Shown here piece after piece: positions 8,558 through 46,767 of a DNA stretch of 64,000 bases. The position numbers and the translations under genes were made by a program. The DNA lies in assembly GCF_027923385.1 (NCBI RefSeq), contig NZ_BSEC01000005.1:1-64000 (forward strand), in the 5' to 3' direction. The stretch comes from Methylocystis echinoides (GTDB taxonomy: Bacteria; Pseudomonadota; Alphaproteobacteria; Rhizobiales; Beijerinckiaceae). The notes under the pieces were generated by a model, which was not told the origin of the DNA, did not search any database, and was given only the letters and a program-made list of their open reading frames with translations. Within the stretch, counting starts at the first letter, position 1. The number at the start of each line of letters is the position of its first letter.

Positions 8558-9475
8558 CTATATATTCACCTCGCCCTCGGCCTCACGCAGGTTTCGATCT
8601 TCGATTTGGATCGTGACGTGCCTTATGTCGAAATCAATCTTCATCGCGTCATTGGCGCTGAGAAGCGTAGCCGACGCTTGGGCTATGTCGGCGACGACGA
8701 GGTGGCAACTCATGGCGTCGATGCCGGATGTAATCGTCCAGACGTGCAAATCATGGACGGCGGTCACGCCGGGAATATCCCGCAGCCTCTGCTCCAGTAG
8801 CTTGATGTCGACTTCCGGCGGCGTGCCCTCCATCAGGATGTGGGTCGCCTGTTTCAACAGGATCCAGGTCCGCGGAACGATGAAAAGCCCGATGCCGGCG
8901 CCGACGATCGGATCGGCAAGCGCCCAACCGGTGAGCATGACGACCGCCGCGGCGACGATGACGCCGAACGAGCCCAGCATGTCGCTGAGGACTTCGAAAT
9001 AGGCCCCTTTCACGTTCAGGCTTTCGGACGATCCGGCCGAAAGGAGCCTCACGCTGACGAGGTTGACCGCAAGACCGACCACGGCCACCAACAGCATCGG
9101 GCCCGCGAGGATTTCCGACGGGTTCAGGAACCGCTGATAGGCTTCATACAAAATGTAAATAGTCAACAGAAGAAGAACCACGGCATTGGTCAGCGCCGAA
9201 AGAACCTCCATGCGGACATAACCGTAGGTGTTCTGCGGCGTCGCGGGGCGTTCAGCGAAGCGAATGGCAATGAGCGCCAAAGCCAGGCCTCCAGCGTCGG
9301 TCAACATATGCGCGGCGTCGGCAAGAAGCGCGAGGCTGCCCGTCCACAGACCGCCGATCACCTCGATCGCCATGAACGTCATTGTAAGGGCGAGAGTCGT
9401 GACGAGCCGGCCTTTGTGCCGCCCTGCCGCTGTTCTCGAGAGCGGCGCCGACGCATGCAAATGTTCCGCACCCAT
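8558..9475 (-). CDS. cation diffusion facilitator (CzcD-like Zn/Cd exporter)
   Basis: A 305-residue inner-membrane protein with six membrane spans and a cytoplasmic C-terminal ferredoxin-like domain. The transport site is visible as HMLTDAGG in span 2 and EVLSDMLGS in span 5, the H-D/D arrangement typical of CDF members that exchange Zn2+ or Cd2+ for protons. The His-rich start (GAEHLHASAPLSR) and the C-terminal VHDLHVWTITSG with HLVV.D are also typical of the CzcD branch. It lies convergent with the TPR-ATPase gene, a second export route for similar ions. No regulator is adjacent. Confidence 0.9.
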   Translation of the reverse strand: MGAEHLHASAPLSRTAAGRHKGRLVTTLALTMTFMAIEVIGGLWTGSLALLADAAHMLTDAGGLALALIAIRFAERPATPQNTYGYVRMEVLSALTNAVVLLLLTIYILYEAYQRFLNPSEILAGPMLLVAVVGLAVNLVSVRLLSAGSSESLNVKGAYFEVLSDMLGSFGVIVAAAVVMLTGWALADPIVGAGIGLFIVPRTWILLKQATHILMEGTPPEVDIKLLEQRLRDIPGVTAVHDLHVWTITSGIDAMSCHLVVADIAQASATLLSANDAMKIDFDIRHVTIQIEDRNLREAEGEVNI

Positions 9476-10306: not shown

Positions 10307-12760
10307 ATGTCACGACATCAGCTTTCCATAGGCGCAAGCGCCTTCATGCTCGGGCTGGCCGCCTCCCCGGCGCTGGCAGTTCACAATCTGCCGACGATCG
10401 AGGTCGGCGGCGTAAAGCACCGAGCCTCTCGTGTTAGCGGACCCGCCCCGGCGAGAAGAGTCGCAGCGCCGGCGCTTGCGACACCGTCCCCTCTGCCGGC
10501 GCCGCCGCCCGCTGCCGCTACGGGAAACCCGGCGGCGCCCTGGTCGTTGGACGAAGCGAGGGCGCCCCTTACCCAACCGAAAAGGCCGGACGCGGCGTCG
10601 AGCGTGCGCAACTTCTCTGGCGCGCAGGTCAACGCCATCCCCTTCGCCCAACCGAGCGATGCGCTCGAAATCGTGCCCGGTTTGCTCGTCGCCCAGCACT
10701 CCGGATCGGGCAAAGCGAACCAATATTTCCTGCGTGGCTTCGCGCTCGACCATGGCAATGATCTTGCCTTGTGGATCGACGGGATGCCGATCAACATGCC
10801 GTCGCATGCCCATGGTCAAGGTTACGCTGACGCCAACTTTGTCATCCCCGAACTCTTCAGCTCGCTCGATGTCCGCAAGGGTCCTTATTTCGCTGACGGC
10901 GGCATCTTCGCCTCGGCCGGACAGATCAACATGCAGTATATCGACAAGCTGCCGGGCGGCCTGCTTTCGATAACCGGCGGAAGTTTTGGGTGGGCGCGTT
11001 CAGTCGCTGCGAAGTCCTGGGCGGTCAGCGGAGGTGACTTAATCGCCGCCGTTGAGGCAAATCATTACAACGGCCCCTGGGAGGTGGCTGAAAACACGAA
11101 AAAGCTGAGCAGCTTCATCAGGTGGAGCCAAGGCACGCAAGCGAATGGCTTCTCCATCACAGGCATGGCCTACTCCAACCACTGGAACGCGACCGACCAA
11201 ATCCCCCAGCGAACTGTCGATCAAGGATTGCTGTCTCGTTGGGGCACACTGGACCCGACGCAACATGGTAACTCAGCCCGTTACAGCTTATCGGCGCGTT
11301 GGAGTCAGGCGGACGAAAGCACGTTCTCACGCGTAGAGGGTTATGTCATTCGCACGGAGCTTAATCTGTGGGATATGGCGACCGGCATCCTTGAACACCC
11401 AGAACTGGGCGACCAATTCCAAAACTTCGATCGGCGCAATATCTTCGGCCTGAATGCGACGCACGGGTGGAATTACAACCTAGGCGCTGTGCCAGTCACC
11501 ACGCGCGTCGGACTACAGGGTCGCTATGACGACATCCGAAACGGCCTTCAGGATTCGTTCCAGCGTAACGTATTCGACACGCCGCGGGACGATTACATCA
11601 AGGAAGGCAACGTCAGCCTCTGGACGGACACCACCGCTTTCTGGACGCCCTGGCTGCGCACGTCGATCGGCGGGCGATTCGATTGGGTCATGGCCTCTGT
11701 CAATTCGATCCAGACGCCCTTCAACGCTCCTAGACTTGGAGACGGCACTGGCGGCTTCTGTTTTGCCGCTACTGACCTGGAGAACTGCGCTGCGTGGACC
11801 GGCCCGTTCAACTCGGGCCGCAAGGGCCAGACCATGGGCAGCCCCAAAGCCGGGATGGTGCTAGGGCCATTCCACAATACCGAACTCTTCCTCAACTTTG
11901 GCGAAGGGCTTCAGAGCAGCGACGCGCGCGGCACGGTCGCGCGTCTCGACCCGCACAATGGCACGCCCTTCACCGATACCGGGCAGGTCCTGGCGACGCC
12001 GCTTCTCGTGAAGACGCGCGGCGCTGAGGCGGGAGTTCGCAGCAAGGCGCTCCTGGCGGGCCTGGACACATCGCTCTCGCTGTGGTGGCAGGATTTCGAT
12101 TCTGAAAACCTGTTCGAAGGCGACGAGGGCACAACGGTGTTTGGTCGACCCAGCCGCCGCTATGGCTTCGAATGGACAGGCCGATACACGCCGACAGATT
12201 GGCTAAGCCTGGATGGCGAGGTGTCCGCGACCCACGCGCGTTTTCGTGGAACGGACCGAGTTCAGCAAGCCGTTTTTTACCAAATCCTCTCCGGCGGATC
12301 TGAAGCTGACGCCATCTTCCCATTGAACGTGCCGGGGAATAGTCCGGGCAATTATTTGACCAATGCACCGACGGTCGTCGCCACGGGCGGCGCGGAAATA
12401 GGCGAGAAGACAGGCTGGTTCGGCGCGCTGCGTTACCGGTATTTCGGCTCGCGGCCCTTGACCGAGGACGGCCAGATCAGGTCGATCGCGGCAGGAACCT
12501 TGAACGCTCGCGTCGGCTATCGCTTCGACAATGGGTGGAAAGCGCAACTTGACGCCTTTAACATAACCAACAATCGCGGCGACGCGATCGCCTATGGCTA
12601 TGGCTCGTTCGTACGCCAGGACCTCTTGTTCCTGCCCCACCCTGGCGAGTCGATCGGGATCATGGATCGACATTTCAAGTCCGTCGATCCGCCTGCAGTT
12701 CGATTGACCTTAGCGGGGCCGTTGACCGTATTCGACGGCTACATTGCCCAACGACCCTGA
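10307..12760 (+). CDS. TonB-dependent outer-membrane receptor
   Basis: An 817-residue protein from the ATG at 10307, chosen over an upstream in-frame start because it gives a signal peptide (SRHQLSIGASAFMLGLAA, ending ALA) and a nearby AGGAAC ribosome site. After a Pro/Ala-rich stretch comes the plug domain (SSVRNFSGAQVNAIPFAQP, then EIVPGLLVAQHSG and YFLRGFALDHGNDLALWIDG), followed by a 22-strand barrel. It imports a chelated metal or other ligand using TonB energy. The ligand is unknown; the surrounding metal genes suggest a metal complex. A strong hairpin terminator follows directly. Confidence 0.88.
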   Translation: MSRHQLSIGASAFMLGLAASPALAVHNLPTIEVGGVKHRASRVSGPAPARRVAAPALATPSPLPAPPPAAATGNPAAPWSLDEARAPLTQPKRPDAASSVRNFSGAQVNAIPFAQPSDALEIVPGLLVAQHSGSGKANQYFLRGFALDHGNDLALWIDGMPINMPSHAHGQGYADANFVIPELFSSLDVRKGPYFADGGIFASAGQINMQYIDKLPGGLLSITGGSFGWARSVAAKSWAVSGGDLIAAVEANHYNGPWEVAENTKKLSSFIRWSQGTQANGFSITGMAYSNHWNATDQIPQRTVDQGLLSRWGTLDPTQHGNSARYSLSARWSQADESTFSRVEGYVIRTELNLWDMATGILEHPELGDQFQNFDRRNIFGLNATHGWNYNLGAVPVTTRVGLQGRYDDIRNGLQDSFQRNVFDTPRDDYIKEGNVSLWTDTTAFWTPWLRTSIGGRFDWVMASVNSIQTPFNAPRLGDGTGGFCFAATDLENCAAWTGPFNSGRKGQTMGSPKAGMVLGPFHNTELFLNFGEGLQSSDARGTVARLDPHNGTPFTDTGQVLATPLLVKTRGAEAGVRSKALLAGLDTSLSLWWQDFDSENLFEGDEGTTVFGRPSRRYGFEWTGRYTPTDWLSLDGEVSATHARFRGTDRVQQAVFYQILSGGSEADAIFPLNVPGNSPGNYLTNAPTVVATGGAEIGEKTGWFGALRYRYFGSRPLTEDGQIRSIAAGTLNARVGYRFDNGWKAQLDAFNITNNRGDAIAYGYGSFVRQDLLFLPHPGESIGIMDRHFKSVDPPAVRLTLAGPLTVFDGYIAQRP

Positions 12761-13348: not shown

Positions 13349-13672
13349 TTGATTACAGAGCCTTCTGAGCATGAGGCGAATGGAGGCGAGGTGCAAGAAA
13401 GCGAGCGCCTTCCGATTGTGCGGGAAGGCGAACGGCCATCCTCTGTCATCACGTCCTGCGGGTTCAGTCGCACAACAATCTACAAATGGGTTGCAGCCGC
13501 GGCGACACCGGGCGTCGGTTTGAAAGCCCTCCTTTCCCAGCCAGCGACCGGGCGTCCACGAACTCTGTCTCCCCGTCAAGAGCAGCAGGTTTTTCGTTGG
13601 ATCAATGGCCGCGACCCGCGCCAATATGGATTAGACTTTGGCCTGTGGACGCGAGCCGTCGTGGCTAACCTT
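13349..13672 (+). pseudogene. IS630-family transposase N-terminal fragment
   Basis: The plus frame reads SVITSCGFSRTTIYKWVAAA, then LSQPATGRPRTLSPRQEQQV and YGLDFGLWTRAVVANL, the helix-turn-helix and linker of an IS630-type transposase. It stops abruptly at about 13672 where the sequence becomes the antisense of a transporter gene, so the catalytic half is gone. It is clearly different from the complete IS630 at 30638. Confidence 0.65.
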
Positions 13673-13912
13673 CAATGACACGCCCAGACCAGCGTTGAAC
13701 AAGAGCATCGCCAACATCAGCGGCGGCAAATTGAGATTAAACTTGCCCTGCGGCGCAAGAAAAAGTCCGAGATCGAGGCCACGAATCCAAAGCCCGAACT
13801 TTGGTAGCAAGGCGGCCACACCATAGGAAAGGACAATCACCCAAATGAAATACTTATGGACGACATGGACCAATGTTGCAGCAAGATTGCCTTTGTCGTT
13901 GAGAGTCGTCAT
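13672..13912 (-). pseudogene. truncated bile-acid:Na+ symporter-type (BASS/ACR3-like) gene
   Basis: From the ATG at 13912 about 80 residues are normal for the start of this ten-span transporter superfamily: VHKYFIWVIVLSYGVAALLP and NLPPLMLAMLLFNAGLGVSL. The frame then runs into the IS630 fragment at about 13672, leaving only the first two or three spans. Members of the superfamily carry bile acids, arsenite or organic acids; the original substrate cannot be told. The insertion or deletion that removed the rest is the junction at 13672. Confidence 0.6.
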
Positions 13913-14214
13913 GCGCGAACCTTTCGAAGGCTTGCGCAGCGGTCCATCCGGCCTGGCGGATTGAAAAATGAAGGCTTATTCAAGTCGGATTCCTAGCGTG
14001 CAGACACAAGCAGGAGTCATCAGCCCCAAGGGCGGTTATAAGGCGAACTCCATCGCCCTTAAGGTCATTTATTCGAAATGAGACTGGACTTGTCAACGGG
14101 TGATTGTGGTCGAGACCTGTCACGACTGTCGACGAAGTGTTTTCACACAACCATGACCCGAAGCGGGTTCTTACAAATCGACTTGACTCAACGTCCATCC
14201 TGCATCCTTATTGC
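13913..14214. other. intergenic region before the riboswitch
   Basis: About 300 bases with no supported gene. It holds a small hairpin (ACCCG-AAG-CGGGT near 14157) and should contain the promoter of the cobalamin operon, although no strong consensus promoter was picked out. Confidence 0.4.
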
Positions 14215-14395
14215 CGTCGATGGTTCCCTTCGGGGATCAAAAGGGAACTCGGTGCGCGCGTGATAGCGCAATACCGAGGCTGCCCCCGCAACTGTAAGCG
14301 GCGAGCCTTAGAGCCAAAAAGCCACTGGGGAAACTTCCCTGGGAAGGCGGTTCAAGGCGATGACCCGCGAGCCAGGAGACCTGCCGTCGTTCGTG
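14215..14395 (+). ncRNA. cobalamin (B12) riboswitch
   Basis: The conserved cobalamin-aptamer blocks occur in order: AAAAGGGAA at 14240-14248, GAGGCTGCCCCCGCAACTG from about 14275, GCCACTGGGG at about 14320, GGGAAGGCGG at 14341, and GATGACCCGCGAGCCAGGAG at about 14359 followed by ACCTGCC. This is the classic B12-box element. It lies about 130 bases upstream of a BtuB-type receptor gene, and it normally shuts off uptake genes when adenosylcobalamin is bound. The region 14396-14523 is the expression platform; the exact switching helices were not resolved. Confidence 0.95.
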
Positions 14396-14523
14396 GTCAC
14401 GCGCGAGAGCGTCGGGCGGGGTGCACCGAGGCGGTCCAAAATTGTCGCCGCGGGCATTAGGCGCGAAGGCGGCAGGCCAAGACCAATCGCAGTGACGGCC
14501 CACGTTGCTGCGAGTCCCAACTC

Positions 14524-16617
14524 ATGCAATTCGATTGCCTACTTGGCGCCGACAAAGGCGTTCTGGCGCGCGCGTCGCGCTATGTCCTTCCGTGTCTCTT
14601 GCCCTTCATCCTTTCCTCGGCCGCCCTTGCCCAGCAGGCGCTGCCGGCGATCGACATCGGTCGAAACTCTGTTCCTGCGACCGACGGCGACGTAAACAAT
14701 GCTGCCGATTCTTCCGACCAAGAGATTGTCGTCACGCCAGACCGCGTGGAGGAGCCCCGGTCGCGCACGGCCAGCTCCGTGTCCGTCGTCACATCCGCCC
14801 AGGTCAATAAATGGGCCTCGCTCGGACTGGCCAACGCCCTGCGCGGCGTTCCCGGCTTAGATCTCTATGAATCCGGCGGTCCTGGGACGCAGACATCCGT
14901 GTTCTTGCGGGGCGCCACGCCGGGCCAGACGCTCGTCCTGATCGACGGCATACGCGTCGGCGACGCCTCGTCGACAGACGGTTCGGTTGATCTCGGCATG
15001 CTCGCCGCGACGGACATCGACCGTATCGAAGTCCTGCGCGGTCCCCAATCCGCGCTCTACGGCTCCGACGCCATGGGCGGGGTCATCAACATCATCACCC
15101 GCAAGGGCCAAGGAAAGCCGCGCGGCTCGGTGATGCTCGAAGGCGGCGCCTATGGGACGGGGCATACGCGCGCGACGGTCTCAGGAAGCGAGGACCGGCT
15201 CTCCTACGCGTTCTCTGTTGACGCTCTCCATGCGGAGGCTTTCCCCCGCTATGGCTATCGGATCAACCGGCCCTTGACGATCGGAGATGGCGTTACCCCC
15301 CTGCCGCCCCTCCCGCCGAACGACCCGACGAACCGCATTGGCGCGACGGCGCGTCTGTCCTACCAGCTCACCGACGCGCTTTCGGTCGAGGGCGGGTTCA
15401 CGGGCTACGACAACGCCATCCGTTTCGACAATCCCTACGCCTTTGTCGCGGCCGATGTTTTCAACGTCGCCAACCATAGCCACGCGACCTTCGCGCAGGG
15501 CTATGCGCGCGCGGACGCCGATCTCTTCGACCGCACGCTGCACAACCGGGTGACGATCTATGCCAACGAGACGAGCCGCGATGTCTGGCAGACCGAATCC
15601 TGCTTCGACGCTAACTTCAACGCCTACACCTGCCGCCTTGGCTATCGCGGCAAACGGCGCGGCCTGGAATATCAAGGCGATCTGAAGCTCGGCGCGTTCG
15701 GTCTGGCCACCTTCGGCGCGGTTAATTGGACCGACTCCGCTCATACCTCTCAGGGTCCGATCCCAGCGGACCCGACCGCGCCCGTCGATTTCGTGCAAAC
15801 AACGCACTCCGGCTTCGGCCAGCATCAGTTCACGCTCTTCGAGCGGCTCGATCTGACCTACGGCGGCCGCATCGACTCGGTGCAAAGCAATCAGAGTTTT
15901 GCGACCTGGCGCGCGACCGCCGCCTTTCGTCTGGACGAGACGGGCACGAAATTTCGCGGGACAGCGGGAACGGGCGCGAAGGTCGCGTCGCTCTATCAGA
16001 GGTTTAGCCAATATGGAGACCCGAACCTGAAGCCGGAGCGCAGCACCGGCTACGATGTTGGCTTCGATCAGAAATTGCTCGGAGAGCGGGTAACGGCTTC
16101 AGTTAGCTTCTTCGACAATCGTTTCCAGAACCTCATCGACTTTGGCTCGGTTCCGACCTGTTCAATCACCCAGGTTTTCGGGTGCTATTTCAACGTAGGG
16201 CGCGCGGAGACCAAGGGCATTGAGTTTGCCGGGGAGGCCGAGATCATTCCCCAGCAGGTCAGGCTTCGTGCGAGCTACACCCACCTTGTCGCGAAGAATC
16301 TCGTGACCGAGCGCTCACTCTTCCGCCGCCCGCCCGACAAGGGAATGGCGTCCCTGATCTATACGGGAATCCCTGGCCTAGAACTCGAAACGCGTCTCTT
16401 GGCCATAAGCGAGACGCCCGACTACGACTTCATCAACGCCAAGCGCGTGACTCGCCCGGCCTATGCGAGGGCCGACCTCTACGCGAACTATAGGTTCGAC
16501 GAGCGTTTCTCTATCTTCGGTCGCGTCGAGAATGTTGGGAACACCTATTACCAGGAAGCCTACAACTACGGCACGCCGGGGCGTTCGCTCTACGGCGGGA
16601 TGAAATTCACATGGTAA
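14524..16617 (+). CDS. btuB: BtuB-like TonB-dependent cobalamin receptor
   Basis: A 697-residue protein with a signal region (YVLPCLLPFILSSAALAQQ), a TonB-box-like EIVVTPDRVEEPRSRTA, a plug domain (GLDLYESGGPGTQTSVFLRG, then GSDAMGGVINIITRKG) and a barrel ending in GMKFTW, with the usual C-terminal aromatic. About 700 residues is a little longer than enteric BtuB. The riboswitch directly upstream and the cobamide-processing genes downstream make cobalamin the likely ligand. The first 20 residues before the signal are unusually long and the ribosome site is weak, so the true start may lie a little downstream. Confidence 0.92.
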   Translation: MQFDCLLGADKGVLARASRYVLPCLLPFILSSAALAQQALPAIDIGRNSVPATDGDVNNAADSSDQEIVVTPDRVEEPRSRTASSVSVVTSAQVNKWASLGLANALRGVPGLDLYESGGPGTQTSVFLRGATPGQTLVLIDGIRVGDASSTDGSVDLGMLAATDIDRIEVLRGPQSALYGSDAMGGVINIITRKGQGKPRGSVMLEGGAYGTGHTRATVSGSEDRLSYAFSVDALHAEAFPRYGYRINRPLTIGDGVTPLPPLPPNDPTNRIGATARLSYQLTDALSVEGGFTGYDNAIRFDNPYAFVAADVFNVANHSHATFAQGYARADADLFDRTLHNRVTIYANETSRDVWQTESCFDANFNAYTCRLGYRGKRRGLEYQGDLKLGAFGLATFGAVNWTDSAHTSQGPIPADPTAPVDFVQTTHSGFGQHQFTLFERLDLTYGGRIDSVQSNQSFATWRATAAFRLDETGTKFRGTAGTGAKVASLYQRFSQYGDPNLKPERSTGYDVGFDQKLLGERVTASVSFFDNRFQNLIDFGSVPTCSITQVFGCYFNVGRAETKGIEFAGEAEIIPQQVRLRASYTHLVAKNLVTERSLFRRPPDKGMASLIYTGIPGLELETRLLAISETPDYDFINAKRVTRPAYARADLYANYRFDERFSIFGRVENVGNTYYQEAYNYGTPGRSLYGGMKFTW

Positions 16618-16627
16618 GGAGGCACAG

Positions 16628-17218
16628 ATGACGATCCCTTCCGGGCAGACGTTGCCGAAGCGGGTCTTGGAGGCTGACGGAACGCCGCTCGACGTGTTTT
16701 CCCTGCCGACAGATCAGACGAGCCTCGAAGAGCTGCTGCGTGATCTCTTCGAGAATCATTGGCGGGAAATCACCTTCGGCATTCTCATTCAGGGCGCCGC
16801 TTGGGAGATGAAAGCCGATCGCGCGCCGACGCGGATCGGCATGCTCGACGGCTATCTGACCGTGGCCTTCGGCGTGCCTCATTTTCACATCTGCATTGGC
16901 CAGACAAAAGGTTCGCGCAGCAGACCGACATCGCCTGAAGTGGCGCGTCATCGGCGCACGGCGCGAGCGGAAATATACCGCCGGATCGGACGCTCCTGCA
17001 CACCAATGTCGTGGGGCGTCCAACTCTTCAACGGCGCGGGGGAGCAGCAGATAACGGTGTTGCTGCCCAATCCATTCCTCCATCCCGACACCGACAAAAT
17101 CCTCAAGGAGCCCGACTGGTCTCGCCTCGCACTATGGGACAAGCTTCGAGCGCGGTGGTTCGACCTTCACGAACCCGACCCGGTCGACCGGTCGGCAAGC
17201 CGCTTCGTGCATGCATGA
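16628..17218 (+). CDS. conserved hypothetical protein of the B12 operon
   Basis: A 196-residue soluble protein, 10 bases after btuB, with AAGGAGGC just before its ATG. No signal peptide or membrane span is seen. Conspicuous segments are DGYLTVAFGVPHFHICIGQT, RTARAEIYRRIG and MSWGVQLFNGAGEQQITVLL, and several His and Cys residues (HFHIC) could bind a metal or corrin. I do not recognise a functional family. Its place inside a riboswitch-controlled operon points to cobamide handling, for example as a chaperone or enzyme, but this is inference from context only. Confidence 0.7.
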   Translation: MTIPSGQTLPKRVLEADGTPLDVFSLPTDQTSLEELLRDLFENHWREITFGILIQGAAWEMKADRAPTRIGMLDGYLTVAFGVPHFHICIGQTKGSRSRPTSPEVARHRRTARAEIYRRIGRSCTPMSWGVQLFNGAGEQQITVLLPNPFLHPDTDKILKEPDWSRLALWDKLRARWFDLHEPDPVDRSASRFVHA

Positions 17219-17360
17219 TCGTCACAGCCACGTCCCGGCGGCCAATCCAAGCAGCGACCGCCGGGCTCCATCCTCCTCGTCCAGGCGGCAAATGCTGAAG
17301 ACGAGCCGAGCCGATAGCCAAAGAGATCATTCGCTATCATCAACCTCACGGAGACCTGAC

Positions 17361-17915
17361 ATGACCGCAGTTAATTTGCCTTCTTCTCTTTCGCGGGCCG
17401 CGATCGGCATTGTCGCACTCGCTGTCGCGAGCGTTCTGTTCACCCTCGGCTTCGCCTGCGCCGTTCCTCTCGCCGCCTTCGCGGCGATCGCCGCCATCTC
17501 GTTCGACCGACGCGAGGCGCTGGCGGCGATCGGCGCCGTATGGCTCGCGAATCAGGCGTGGGGATTTACCGTGATGCATTATCCGATGGATGGCGAGACG
17601 TTCGCTTGGGGCGGGGCGCTTGGTATCATCGCGGTGCTCTCGTGTGAAGCCGCCAGAGCGGCGACGCGGCGGTTCTCGGGCGCCGTCGGCGCTTGCGTGT
17701 CCTTCCTTGCGGCTTTCGTCGCCTATGAGGGCTCTCTGATCGTTATAAATTTGGTCACCGGCCAAAGTGGCGAGGATTTCGCGCCGGTGACCGTTGCGCG
17801 GATTTTTCTCATCAACGCTTGCGCCTTCGGCGGTCTTTGGGCGCTGAAGGCGGTCGCCGCGAACACGGCGTCCGGCCGCAAGCTGTCAGGAACGCTCGCG
17901 CCTCGGCACATCTAA
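17361..17915 (+). CDS. multi-span membrane protein of the B12 operon, candidate inner-membrane carrier
   Basis: A 184-residue hydrophobic protein from the ATG at 17361, which has a GGAG site 8 bases upstream (the frame is open from 17211 but without a credible start). Five or six membrane spans are visible, for example IGIVALAVASVLFTLGFACA, LAAFAAIAAISF and ALGIIAVLSCEAA, with the polar loop NQAWGFTVMHYPMDGETFAW between spans. The size and plan recall small substrate-binding (S) components such as BtuM, but homology was not established. No BtuC, BtuD or BtuF gene is in the window, so this is the only candidate for moving corrinoid across the inner membrane. Confidence 0.75.
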   Translation: MTAVNLPSSLSRAAIGIVALAVASVLFTLGFACAVPLAAFAAIAAISFDRREALAAIGAVWLANQAWGFTVMHYPMDGETFAWGGALGIIAVLSCEAARAATRRFSGAVGACVSFLAAFVAYEGSLIVINLVTGQSGEDFAPVTVARIFLINACAFGGLWALKAVAANTASGRKLSGTLAPRHI

Positions 17916-17983
17916 AGACGCTTCGCGGAGCGCCTGGCTGCAAGTCGGGCGCTCCGCAGGCTTGCTCGAATTGCGGATACAAC

Positions 17984-18679
17984 ATGACTGAGTTGCCGTT
18001 CCGGCTCGACTTGGAGCCGCCTTTCCTTATCGTTCGCTTCGAGAACACGCAACGAACGTTGGGATGGTCAATAACAATGCCAGGCTTCGCCTCGGCGAGA
18101 GAAGTTGTATGGCTTGAAGTTCGTGACGATGATCTCGCGATCCATATCGACCCAGTCGACTTCGTGGGGGCGAAGTTATTATCACGCGGCCTCACGGATG
18201 CAGCCGCCTTTATGACCTCCCGCGAAATCCAACGTCATCATATCGCGCAATCTCGCATTGGCGTCGCCACTGCCACGTGCCTGACGACCGTCGGTCTGTC
18301 GAATGGCGAGAAGGTCGGAAAGCGCCACAGGCAAGAGACTTCTGCGGTAGGAACGGTGAACACGCTTGTTCACGTCTCACGCCCACTGTCAGCAGGCGCC
18401 TTCGTCGAGTCTGTCTCCATTGCGACTCAGGCGCGAACAGCAGCGATCATGGAAACGAACGATCTTCGGGACGGACCAGCCATAACTGGCACAGGGACGG
18501 ATTGCATCCTCATCATGGCGCCGGAAGGCGATGCGCCTGAAACATGCGCTGGCCTCCACACCGATCTCGGAGAGGCGATCGGCGCGGCCGTGTATGACGC
18601 GACACATGCGGGCGCGACGGAGTGGAGCGCGGAACTCAAGTTGGCCAACGGAATTCAATCACTATGGACGACGCCATGA
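17984..18679 (+). CDS. cbiZ: CbiZ-like adenosylcobinamide amidohydrolase
   Basis: A 231-residue protein. The block SAVGTVNTLVHVSRPLSAGA, then SIATQARTAAIMETND and AITGTGTDCILIMAPEG, then CAGLHTDLGEAIGAAVYDAT carries the CbiZ signatures (NT-V in the first strand, TGTGTD in the catalytic loop, G...LG..IG at the end). CbiZ removes the lower-ligand side chain of adenosyl-pseudocobamides to give adenosylcobyric acid, so that imported cobamides can be rebuilt with the cell's preferred base. Its stop overlaps the next ATG (ATGA at 18676), so the two are translationally coupled. Confidence 0.85.
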   Translation: MTELPFRLDLEPPFLIVRFENTQRTLGWSITMPGFASAREVVWLEVRDDDLAIHIDPVDFVGAKLLSRGLTDAAAFMTSREIQRHHIAQSRIGVATATCLTTVGLSNGEKVGKRHRQETSAVGTVNTLVHVSRPLSAGAFVESVSIATQARTAAIMETNDLRDGPAITGTGTDCILIMAPEGDAPETCAGLHTDLGEAIGAAVYDATHAGATEWSAELKLANGIQSLWTTP

Positions 18680-19206
18680 CTGCAAAACTTTACACAAAGA
18701 AGGGTGACGGCGGCAAAACAAGCCTGTTTTCCGGCCGCCGCGCGGAGAAGTTCGATCCACGTGTCGCCGCAGTCGGCGACCTTGACGAATTGTCGGCAAG
18801 CATCGGACTGGCTCGCGTCGCCTATCCGCCCGCGAGTGAACTGCTGCGTTCGGCCCAGCGCGCGCTCTATACTATAAGCGCGATCGTCAGCGCCGAGGAC
18901 CGTTCGGTCGATATGAGATTCGACGAAACTGAAGTTGGGGCGCTTGAAATCGAGATCGATCGCGCGAGCGCCGAATTGCCTGAGTTGCGAGAATTTATCT
19001 TTCCCGGTGAAGCGGAACAGAGCTGTCGTCTCCATATGGCGCGCGCGGTCGCGCGCCGCGCCGAACGTGGCATTTCTGCCCTTACTGAACCAATTCCGCC
19101 AGAATCTGTTCTGGCTTATCTCAACCGCTTGAGCGATCTGTTGTTCGTCTTGGCGCGACAGGCCGATCAATCGCAGGGGCAATCTGAGACGATTCTACGC
19201 GCGTGA
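18676..19206 (+). CDS. PduO-type cob(I)alamin adenosyltransferase
   Basis: A 176-residue protein starting TAKLYTKKGDGGKTSLFSG, the ATP-binding N-terminus of the PduO family (T-x-x-GD-G-TSL). FDPRVAAVGDLDELSASIGL and RLHMARAVARRAER complete the active site and trimer interface of the five-helix bundle. It transfers the adenosyl group from ATP to reduced corrinoid, making the coenzyme form. The ATG at 18676 was chosen because it overlaps the cbiZ stop and opens the conserved TAKLYTKKGDG. Last gene of the riboswitch operon. Confidence 0.93.
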   Translation: MTAKLYTKKGDGGKTSLFSGRRAEKFDPRVAAVGDLDELSASIGLARVAYPPASELLRSAQRALYTISAIVSAEDRSVDMRFDETEVGALEIEIDRASAELPELREFIFPGEAEQSCRLHMARAVARRAERGISALTEPIPPESVLAYLNRLSDLLFVLARQADQSQGQSETILRA

Positions 19207-45221: not shown

Positions 45222-46559
45222 TCACCCTGCCCTCTTCCGCTCGCGCGCTGCTGCGGCCTTGCCGCGCAACAGCGCCATCAGCACAGGCCCCAGCGAAAAC
45301 TCCCCTGCCCGCGCCTTGGCGGTCAGAACGCGCAGATAGCCGCCAGCGGATCTGATTTCATCGCCCCGCTGCAGGATCGCGGCGATGACGATGGCGGCGT
45401 CATGCTCGCCCATGGCGTCCAAGGCCTGAGCCCAAGCGTCAGGCGAGACGCCGAGCGCCGAACGCACGGTCGCAGCCGCCGTTGCGAGATCGCGCCAGGA
45501 TGAAATCTCGCCCCCCTTGGCGTAATCGACGATATCCGGGCAAGCTTGCAGCACCATCCCCAGCGGATAGGTTTTGGGGGTTGGCGTGGGACGGGGCGGA
45601 GCTTCAGTTTCCCGCTTCTCCGGTTCCGCAGTCCGTGCTCCATCCGCCTCCGCTTCATCGACGATTGGCCCGGGCGGTTCGGCCCTGCCTTCTCGAAGGC
45701 TAGGTTCAAGATCAGAAATGTTTGTGGTTTGATTCTGTATGTGGCGCTCAATCTGAGACTCATTGGCGCTCTTATTTTTGATTTTAGCAAAATTTTCCAA
45801 AAGGTTACGGATTTCGGTCGCAAGCGCCGTTAAATCTGCCGCCAAAGCTTCCAAATCGACGCGTGAGAGATTACGCGCATATCGCCCGGAAAGCGCCGCA
45901 TAGCTCATGTGGCGCTGCTCCCAGTCGCCGGGAATGGCTTCTTCCAAGGCCATTTCGATCATCTTGACGATGTCGCGCCGCGTCAGCGTGATCTTTTCGC
46001 GCAGCAAAGCTATCGCTCGGTTTTCCGCCCGCACCTCTTCGGCGAGGTTCTCGATCTCGCTGGCGCGCGCGACGAGCGGTGTCAGATCAAAGCCGAAAGC
46101 GTCCTCGATCTCTCCACCCTGCCCCCTGCGCGCGAAGCGCTTGCCGTTAGCAGAGTCGCGGCGGATGATCAGCCCGGCTTCGACGAGCGCGGCGAGGTGG
46201 CGACGCAGCGTCGCCGGTGCCATCCCATGGGCGCGGATGGAGAGTTCCCGATTGGAAGGGAACACCACGACGCCAAGTCCGGGCGAATCATCCTCACTGT
46301 CCGCTTTTGGATCGCGCTGCGGCAGCGTCAGCGCTGTTTCCTGGTGGAAACTGAGCAGCGCGTGCAGCACCGACAGCGCCCGATCGGTGACGCCGATAGG
46401 CCCCTTCGCTTCGGTCAGTGCCCGAAACAATCGCCATTTATGGACAACCAGTTCGGATGCATCTGGCTTTGCCTCGAAATCTCTTGTGTTCGCCTGGCTC
46501 GCCACCATGGCGAGCGACAGCGATCGCCGCCCAAAGGGCGTCGTTGAATGTGTGCGCAT
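45222..46559 (-). CDS. repC: RepC replication initiator of a repABC replicon
   Basis: A 445-residue initiator. The conserved N-terminus reads FGRRSLSLAMVASQANTRDF, then VHKWRLFRALTEAKGPIGVT and DRALSVLHALLSFHQETALT, LGVVVFPSNRELSIRAHGMA and TLRRHLAALVEAGLIIRRDS (winged helix). The C-terminal domain ends with YLRVLTAKARAGEFSLGPVL. In this family the origin lies inside repC itself. It is the last gene of the operon, controlled by RepA/RepB and by the antisense RNA in the 208-base gap before it. Confidence 0.95.
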   Translation of the reverse strand: MRTHSTTPFGRRSLSLAMVASQANTRDFEAKPDASELVVHKWRLFRALTEAKGPIGVTDRALSVLHALLSFHQETALTLPQRDPKADSEDDSPGLGVVVFPSNRELSIRAHGMAPATLRRHLAALVEAGLIIRRDSANGKRFARRGQGGEIEDAFGFDLTPLVARASEIENLAEEVRAENRAIALLREKITLTRRDIVKMIEMALEEAIPGDWEQRHMSYAALSGRYARNLSRVDLEALAADLTALATEIRNLLENFAKIKNKSANESQIERHIQNQTTNISDLEPSLREGRAEPPGPIVDEAEADGARTAEPEKRETEAPPRPTPTPKTYPLGMVLQACPDIVDYAKGGEISSWRDLATAAATVRSALGVSPDAWAQALDAMGEHDAAIVIAAILQRGDEIRSAGGYLRVLTAKARAGEFSLGPVLMALLRGKAAAARERKRAG

Positions 46560-46614
46560 GATCCTTTGCCTCGTTCAGGCAAAAGAAATCTGCTCGCCAA
46601 AACGGCGCCGACTC

Positions 46615-46643
46615 TTGACAGCGATTCGCGGAAGTGTGATTCT
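46615..46643 (+). promoter_or_regulatory. promoter of the antisense RNA
   Basis: TTGACA (46615-46620), 17-base spacer, GATTCT (46638-46643) on the plus strand, antisense to the repC leader. The -35 is perfect; the -10 is weak (3 of 6 consensus bases). Placement about 57 bases before the terminator end suits a repABC counter-transcribed RNA. Confidence 0.55.
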
Positions 46644-46649
46644 CTTAGG

Positions 46650-46706
46650 TGCTAAACTTCGAGAAGGGCTTCCGGGACGGTGACGTTTCGGGGGCCTTTT
46701 TCTTTT
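46650..46706 (+). ncRNA. counter-transcribed RNA (incA-type) controlling repC
   Basis: Between repB and repC, on the strand opposite to them, a promoter-like pair leads to an about 57-base segment that ends in a strong terminator. The stem is GGCTTCCGGGACG (46667-46679) with CGTTTCGGGGGCC (46684-46696), a GTGA loop and TTTTTCTTTT; several pairs are G-U on the plus-strand RNA. All repABC plasmids studied carry such an RNA of about 50-60 bases, which blocks repC translation and sets incompatibility. The transcription start is estimated, not observed. Confidence 0.8.
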
Positions 46707-46767
46707 GCGTTAACTCCTGCTCATGTTTCTAGAGTGTCCCGCTGGCGCTGGACGGCGATCTTCCGGA

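Follow-up and report, generated by a model that had tools for sequence, protein, structure and literature searches.

How does a corrinoid cross the inner membrane in a bacterium that carries a riboswitch-led vitamin B12 (cobalamin) salvage operon and no match to BtuC, the permease of the importer BtuCDF? The question is raised by an operon of Methylocystis echinoides in the first 64,000 nucleotides of contig NZ_BSEC01000005.1 ("the window"), where a cobalamin riboswitch precedes genes for a BtuB-type outer-membrane receptor, a soluble protein of the family DUF7676, a small membrane protein that we call MEMB, the amidohydrolase CbiZ and a PduO-type adenosyltransferase. We consider it fairly probable that the operon is a compact corrinoid salvage route under riboswitch control, in which MEMB would be a solitary, BtuM-like carrier of corrinoids and DUF7676 their cytosolic chaperone. 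The evidence for this consists of the operon and its riboswitch, the family-wide linkage of MEMB to B12 genes, its exchange with BtuFCD in sister operons, residues that do not vary, the folds predicted for both proteins, and a genome with no BtuC or EcfT match.

The operon and its predicted proteins

The operon leader (14204..14402, +) matches the cobalamin riboswitch RF00174 over model positions 1–189 of 189, at 141.8 bits against a cut-off of 31.5 (E 9.3e-36). On the same strand follow btuB (14524..16617, 697 residues), a TonB-dependent receptor with the PF07715 plug and PF00593 barrel over the Pfam cut-offs, and whose best NCBIfam match is the TonB-dependent B12 receptor TIGR01779, at 253 bits and below its equivalog cut-off of 600; DUF7676 (16628..17218, 196 residues; PF24724, 236.4 bits vs. 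a cut-off of 27, E 1.5e-70), the predicted corrinoid chaperone; and MEMB (17361..17915, 184 residues, six helices), which its relatives, their contexts, its fold, its cysteine and its charge bias suggest to be a solitary S-component-like corrinoid carrier. The last two genes are cbiZ (17984..18679, +, 231 residues), for adenosylcobinamide amidohydrolase (PF01955, 147.5 bits vs. 27, E 5.9e-43), and that for the PduO-type cob(I)alamin adenosyltransferase (18664..19206, +, 180 residues; PF01923, E 5.4e-47; TIGR00636, 143.6 bits vs. 108.45), which overlap by 16 bases; the intergenic gaps measure 10 to 142 bases. An earlier note, made from the sequence alone, had described this same close-set series behind a riboswitch, and that observation is confirmed. 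The start chosen for MEMB at 17361 is preceded by GGAG and gives a length common among its relatives, within a longer open reading frame (ORF) that begins at 17211.

The route that we infer, in its transport and substrate, the ligation of cobalt by a cysteine, every binding and hand-over step and the chaperone role of DUF7676, would run as follows. BtuB would move cobamides across the outer membrane. MEMB, on its periplasmic face, would then bind the corrinoid, the invariant Cys33 in loop L1 probably acting as cobalt ligand, and carry it inward without an ATPase, with adenosylation inside as the trap. In the cytosol the corrinoid would go to DUF7676, which may reduce it or remove its upper ligand, and from there to the PduO-type adenosyltransferase. 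CbiZ has a role in cobamide remodelling, and here it would remove the nucleotide loop of foreign cobamides, from which the host would rebuild its own.

MEMB matches no Pfam or NCBIfam family over cut-off. Its predicted six-helix fold is closest to the S-components of energy-coupling factor (ECF) transporters, RibU and others, which take ranks 1–6 of the VIA-align list, in a comparison that the earlier note had proposed; Foldseek gave no significant match for the predicted model, and BtuM is not among the 50 VIA-align rows listed, which excludes nothing. MEMB is unlike the S-components in sequence, where we found no similarity, and in having no conserved AXXXA register in helix 1: in a single register the motif occurs in at most 8 of 30 sequences (18/22) and 32 of 135 (19/23), and anywhere in the helix in 18 of 30 and 46 of 135. 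A working ECF transporter was considered and rejected, as the genome has no EcfT match. Cys33, in the outside loop L1, is invariant (52 of 52 sequences), and L3 bears Tyr-Pro.

DUF7676 has the motif HxHxC, in which H85 and H87 are invariant and C89 nearly so among 69 sequences. Its model (predicted local distance difference test score, pLDDT, 91.2) matches the ChuX/HutX/HemS haem chaperones in VIA-align, 12 of the 15 rows above background being named haem proteins and three unnamed; the assignment is that of a predicted model, with VIA-align as the sole comparison. The ChuX/HutX/HemS Pfam families are not among the matches of the 69 members at E <= 1, two members match LFE_1968-like weakly (PF22684, E 0.0047), and a PDB sequence search with DUF7676 found no relatives. 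Pfam lists the family as of unknown function, and the word DUF7676 was not found in the literature searched. On the haem side, TonB receptor, cytosolic haem protein and importer likewise share an operon logic, and DUF7676 thus resembles ChuX/HutX and HemS/PhuS/ChuS both in predicted fold and in standing as a cytosolic tetrapyrrole protein between receptor and importer; it differs in lacking a Pfam match to them, in its B12 riboswitch control, in HxHxC and in its predicted corrinoid substrate. With human MMACHC/CblC it would share the job of receiving corrinoid in the cytosol and processing the upper ligand, although MMACHC has a nitroreductase-like fold, unlike DUF7676.

Relatives in other genomes and exchange with BtuFCD

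Profile searches found MEMB in 25 of 149 genomes of the family, 7 of 199 of the order, 13 of 337 of the class and 10 of 349 of the phylum; the samples overlap and each counts the own genome, without which there are 49 loci in 47 genomes. All 49 were inspected, with Rfam for riboswitches and tblastn with the operon and neighbour proteins; the neighbour names cob and metH/metE were read by eye from the sequences. A cobalamin riboswitch lies on the same strand within 6 kb upstream of MEMB in 31 of the 49 (17 genera by the search tables), where about 0.1 would be expected by chance, by arithmetic from four riboswitches per 5.3 Mb; in L115, L117, L122 and L128 it ends 125–170 bases upstream of the MEMB match. 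Nine more loci have a divergent riboswitch or adjacent B12 genes (L061, L064, L067, L072, L073, L074, L076, L078 and L127), and nine have no B12 link (L066, L069, L070, L071, L112, L116, L118, L119 and L124), falling on the tree as scattered tips and small groups among linked members. With 40 of the 49 loci in B12 company, the view that MEMB belongs among B12 genes is supported. An accidental operon was rejected on the strength of the 31 riboswitch-led loci and of a second copy in the same genome (see below).

The sister operons of DUF7676 indicate what MEMB may stand in for. The order riboswitch, TonB receptor, DUF7676, binding protein, permease recurs on plasmids of Azospirillum, Diaphorobacter, Paracoccus (binding protein annotated as hypothetical), Nostoc, Trichormus and Acaryochloris, closed by an ATPase in all except Acaryochloris, while in Rhodococcus DUF7676 lies between two ATP-binding cassette (ABC) sets, beside an FhuF-C-type protein. 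These seven, with Methylocella as the eighth, are the records examined out of 14. Among genomes of the class, a BtuF, BtuC or BtuD match comes next after DUF7676 on the same strand in 11 of 14 loci outside the own genome, and all three are there in seven. At 13 of the 49 MEMB loci it is MEMB that comes after DUF7676, and none of these 13 contains a BtuC match. DUF7676 with BtuFCD in sister operons, against DUF7676 with MEMB and no BtuC, is the pattern of one importer replacing another: MEMB takes the BtuFCD slot in an otherwise alike operon, though not absolutely. BtuCDF and MEMB share this place in the order of riboswitch, TonB receptor, DUF7676 and importer; BtuCDF has three parts, whereas MEMB is one small protein without an ATPase or an obligatory binding protein. 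MEMB itself is on four plasmid records, of which three were examined: Methylocella (riboswitch-btuB-DUF7676-MEMB), Acaryochloris (L081, 146 bases behind a riboswitch) and Qipengyuania (adjoining a "cobalamin-binding protein", no riboswitch).

The earlier note had left the soluble protein without a role. That no longer fits: B12 uptake operons with a riboswitch leader repeatedly include DUF7676, and the fold predicted for it is like that of haem chaperones. At the 14 DUF7676 loci of the class, a crude scan for riboswitch motifs gave four sites, three on the operon strand (the scan detected 34 of 39 known loci). A sequence model built from 23 riboswitches placed one on the same strand before the receptor in 10 of the 14; it detected all four known ones outside its training set (L075, L115, L123 and L125) and, on four cyanobacterial or actinobacterial controls, missed L086 and L088 and gave weak signals for L084 and L087. 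Of the four class loci without a riboswitch, L153 ends about 145 bases past its receptor match. Applied to the nine MEMB loci with no B12 link, the same model added no further riboswitch. The carrier idea stands, and the DUF7676 half is stronger than the earlier reading had it; the first interpretation as a whole is partly supported.

Several further features of the relatives deserve mention. In the near relatives L047–L051 and L006, the BtuB slot is held by a different, longer TonB receptor of about 850 residues, similar to the window BtuB in its first part only (24–28%), so that two receptor types share the same operon. The relatives in L067, L072, L076, L113, L115 and L117 adjoin a "BtuF-like" protein; that of L076, which was scanned, matches PF01497. 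By eye this protein has no evident signal peptide at its start, and it is perhaps a cytosolic corrinoid-binding partner; a search of the host genome for it came up empty. At L059 riboswitch-led operons diverge back to back, with matches to BtuD, a DUF7676 paralogue and BtuC on one side and BtuB-MEMB on the other. Downstream of the MEMB relative at L081 come genes for ribonucleotide reductase, then DUF1636 and cobW, and metE is close by on the opposite strand. At L118 a cobalamin riboswitch (9209–9412, −) lies 2.6 kb from an opposite-strand MEMB relative, and the gene that it precedes resembles, by eye, one for a Rieske-type oxygenase.

No such carrier or chaperone is named among the literature titles and opening parts of abstracts listed. 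In Methylobacterium and Rhodocyclus a gene of B12 uptake goes by the name BtuN (PMC7038796, PMC8954225); we did not find the sequence so named, and MEMB may already be labelled BtuN in some annotation. In the 349-genome phylum sample MEMB was found only within its own class, a slight argument against its being the BtuN of Betaproteobacteria.

The host genome and competing explanations

Four cobalamin riboswitches (E <= 0.001) were found in the host genome, which measures 5.32 Mb and is 99% complete. Two of them head this operon: the window copy and a copy on contig C2 (riboswitch 16033–16231, MEMB at 19198). Identities between the copies are 82–83% for btuB, 88% for DUF7676, 71% for MEMB, 69% for CbiZ and 74% for PduO. 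L005, from the metagenome-assembled genome Hyphomicrobiales AWTP1-1, has operon identities to the window equal to those of the C2 copy and may be the own genome or a very near relative; it was excluded from the counts. The third riboswitch heads a chromosomal cluster of CbtA, cobW, cobN, a cobG-like gene, cobH/CbiC and a tetrapyrrole methylase; judged by this cob cluster, the host is probably a B12 producer, and the cluster gives it a cobalt carrier gene outside the MEMB operons. The fourth heads another TonB receptor. In the whole genome there are no matches to the FecCD/BtuC permease (PF01032; 13 of 14 control genomes positive) or to CbiQ/EcfT (PF02361; 10 of 14 positive), so that, as to the permease, the lack of BtuCDF which the earlier note reported for the window extends genome-wide. 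The plasmid location that it proposed is likewise supported, by a repABC-type antisense RNA (RF00489, at 46662) and an S-element (RF00490, at 46557) on this 169-kb contig, which mark window region 46557–46708 as a plasmid replication region.

That MEMB is the only possible carrier, as had been claimed, fails because the host has the second MEMB copy and encodes two proteins of the SbmA/BacA family (PF05992), to which we take mycobacterial BacA to be kin; its candidacy, with a predicted S-component-like fold at the BtuFCD position, holds. Mycobacterial BacA imports cobalamin (PMC10960864), and the two host proteins are thus one of several points that weigh against MEMB as the carrier and lend themselves to the best surviving alternative, which we hold to be unlikely: that MEMB is an accessory with an S-component fold, a periplasm-facing protein for corrinoid ligand exchange, holding or sensing, while entry is by BtuCDF, SbmA/BacA or another route. 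Receptors with S-component folds are also known (PMC11109136). The order at L075 is riboswitch-BtuF-BtuC-BtuD-MEMB, five genomes of the class carry MEMB and DUF7676 at separate places, and in one genome (G379; L122 and L160) MEMB lies a few kb from a DUF7676-BtuFCD operon. Across the family MEMB is no strict replacement for BtuC: FecCD proteins, which include siderophore permeases, coexist with it in 16 of the 25 positive family genomes. FecCD is lacking in the other nine, the host and eight more, against 28 of the 124 other family genomes, which makes for a weak co-occurrence test; those nine nevertheless argue against an accessory. So do L115 and L117, where MEMB is the first gene behind the riboswitch, followed by the BtuF-like protein, with no BtuC or BtuD match in 13 kb; at L122 and L128, where MEMB is also first, an ABC ATPase match lies some kb away.

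It is a little less plausible again that the cargo of MEMB is not the corrinoid but a precursor of the lower ligand, alpha-ribazole or a benzimidazole. CblT is thought to carry such a precursor in Gram-positive bacteria, many small vitamins are carried by S-component folds, and MEMB lies within cobT/cobS/cobC/cobU groups in L073, L078, L122 and L126 (the cob names read by eye and transferred by tblastn). Against this, MEMB is most often beside a TonB receptor of a type also found at the head of DUF7676-BtuFCD operons, the corrinoid-acting CbiZ and PduO adjoin it in some loci, it occupies the BtuFCD slot, and an invariant outside cysteine fits a cobalt ligand.

A comparison with BtuM bears both on the carrier reading and on the possibility, which we regard as improbable, that MEMB is a divergent BtuM and so a new member of a known family. 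PMC6072759 describes BtuM as a 22-kDa protein of six helices with the S-component fold, which needs no ECF module to support B12-dependent growth. Cys80 in L3 binds the corrinoid in its base-off form, and BtuM decyanates it; btuM genes lie mostly near that for an adenosyltransferase, which could trap the product. BtuM of Thiobacillus denitrificans and MEMB share a size of about 20–22 kDa, an invariant outside cysteine, six helices and an S-component-like fold (these two as predicted for MEMB), a B12 locus with an adenosyltransferase gene nearby, and a host in which no ECF module was found. They differ in that the cysteine is in L3 in BtuM and in L1 in MEMB, and in the DUF7676 and CbiZ that the MEMB operon has in addition; the conserved pocket residues of BtuM (H28, D67, Y85 and R153) also speak against membership. 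Searches with MEMB profiles, one built from 22 sequences and one from 135, gave no BtuM chain or other relative at E <= 10 among PDB sequences, a set in which the presence of the BtuM chain was not confirmed. Because of the cysteine in L1 and the lack of a detected sequence relation, we take MEMB to be BtuM-like in its proposed mechanism and not a member of BtuM.

A cobalt carrier for de novo synthesis was considered and rejected as very improbable: such carriers are also found under cobalamin riboswitches (PMC3766115), but in the host a CbtA-type subunit of a cobalt carrier is encoded with cobW, cobN and cobG in a cluster that has a separate riboswitch, and MEMB accompanies receptors and salvage enzymes.

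The more specific form of the corrinoid carrier reading, a B12 hand-over line in which MEMB grips the cobalt by its L1 cysteine, a solution other than the L3 cysteine of BtuM, and passes the corrinoid to DUF7676, a trafficking chaperone with a haem-chaperone fold and the job of MMACHC, is a tentative proposal, possible though short of an even chance. If it is true, many B12 uptake operons behind a riboswitch, in lineages ranging from Alphaproteobacteria to Actinomycetota and cyanobacteria, would encode in DUF7676 a cytosolic chaperone that has so far escaped notice, its importer being BtuFCD in some and the small carrier in others. MEMB would be a second candidate family of one-protein B12 carriers, with a single invariant cysteine open to mutation, and DUF7676 a definite candidate, inexpensive to test, for the role of B12 chaperone in the bacterial cytosol; both could account for the scavenging and remodelling of foreign cobamides by bacteria.

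Surroundings of the operon

A second TonB receptor lies 5′ of the operon (10310–12760, +). No riboswitch was detected before it; the chromosomal receptor to which it is 44% identical (L011, 6686–9223) sits behind a cobalamin riboswitch. Just 5′ of the operon, and oriented away from it, is a fluoride riboswitch (RF01734, 59.1 bits; 14004–14066, −), whose gene looks cut off, since the next minus-strand ORF is only a 93-residue piece (13631–13912, no Pfam match), followed by ORFs that by eye are transposase-like.

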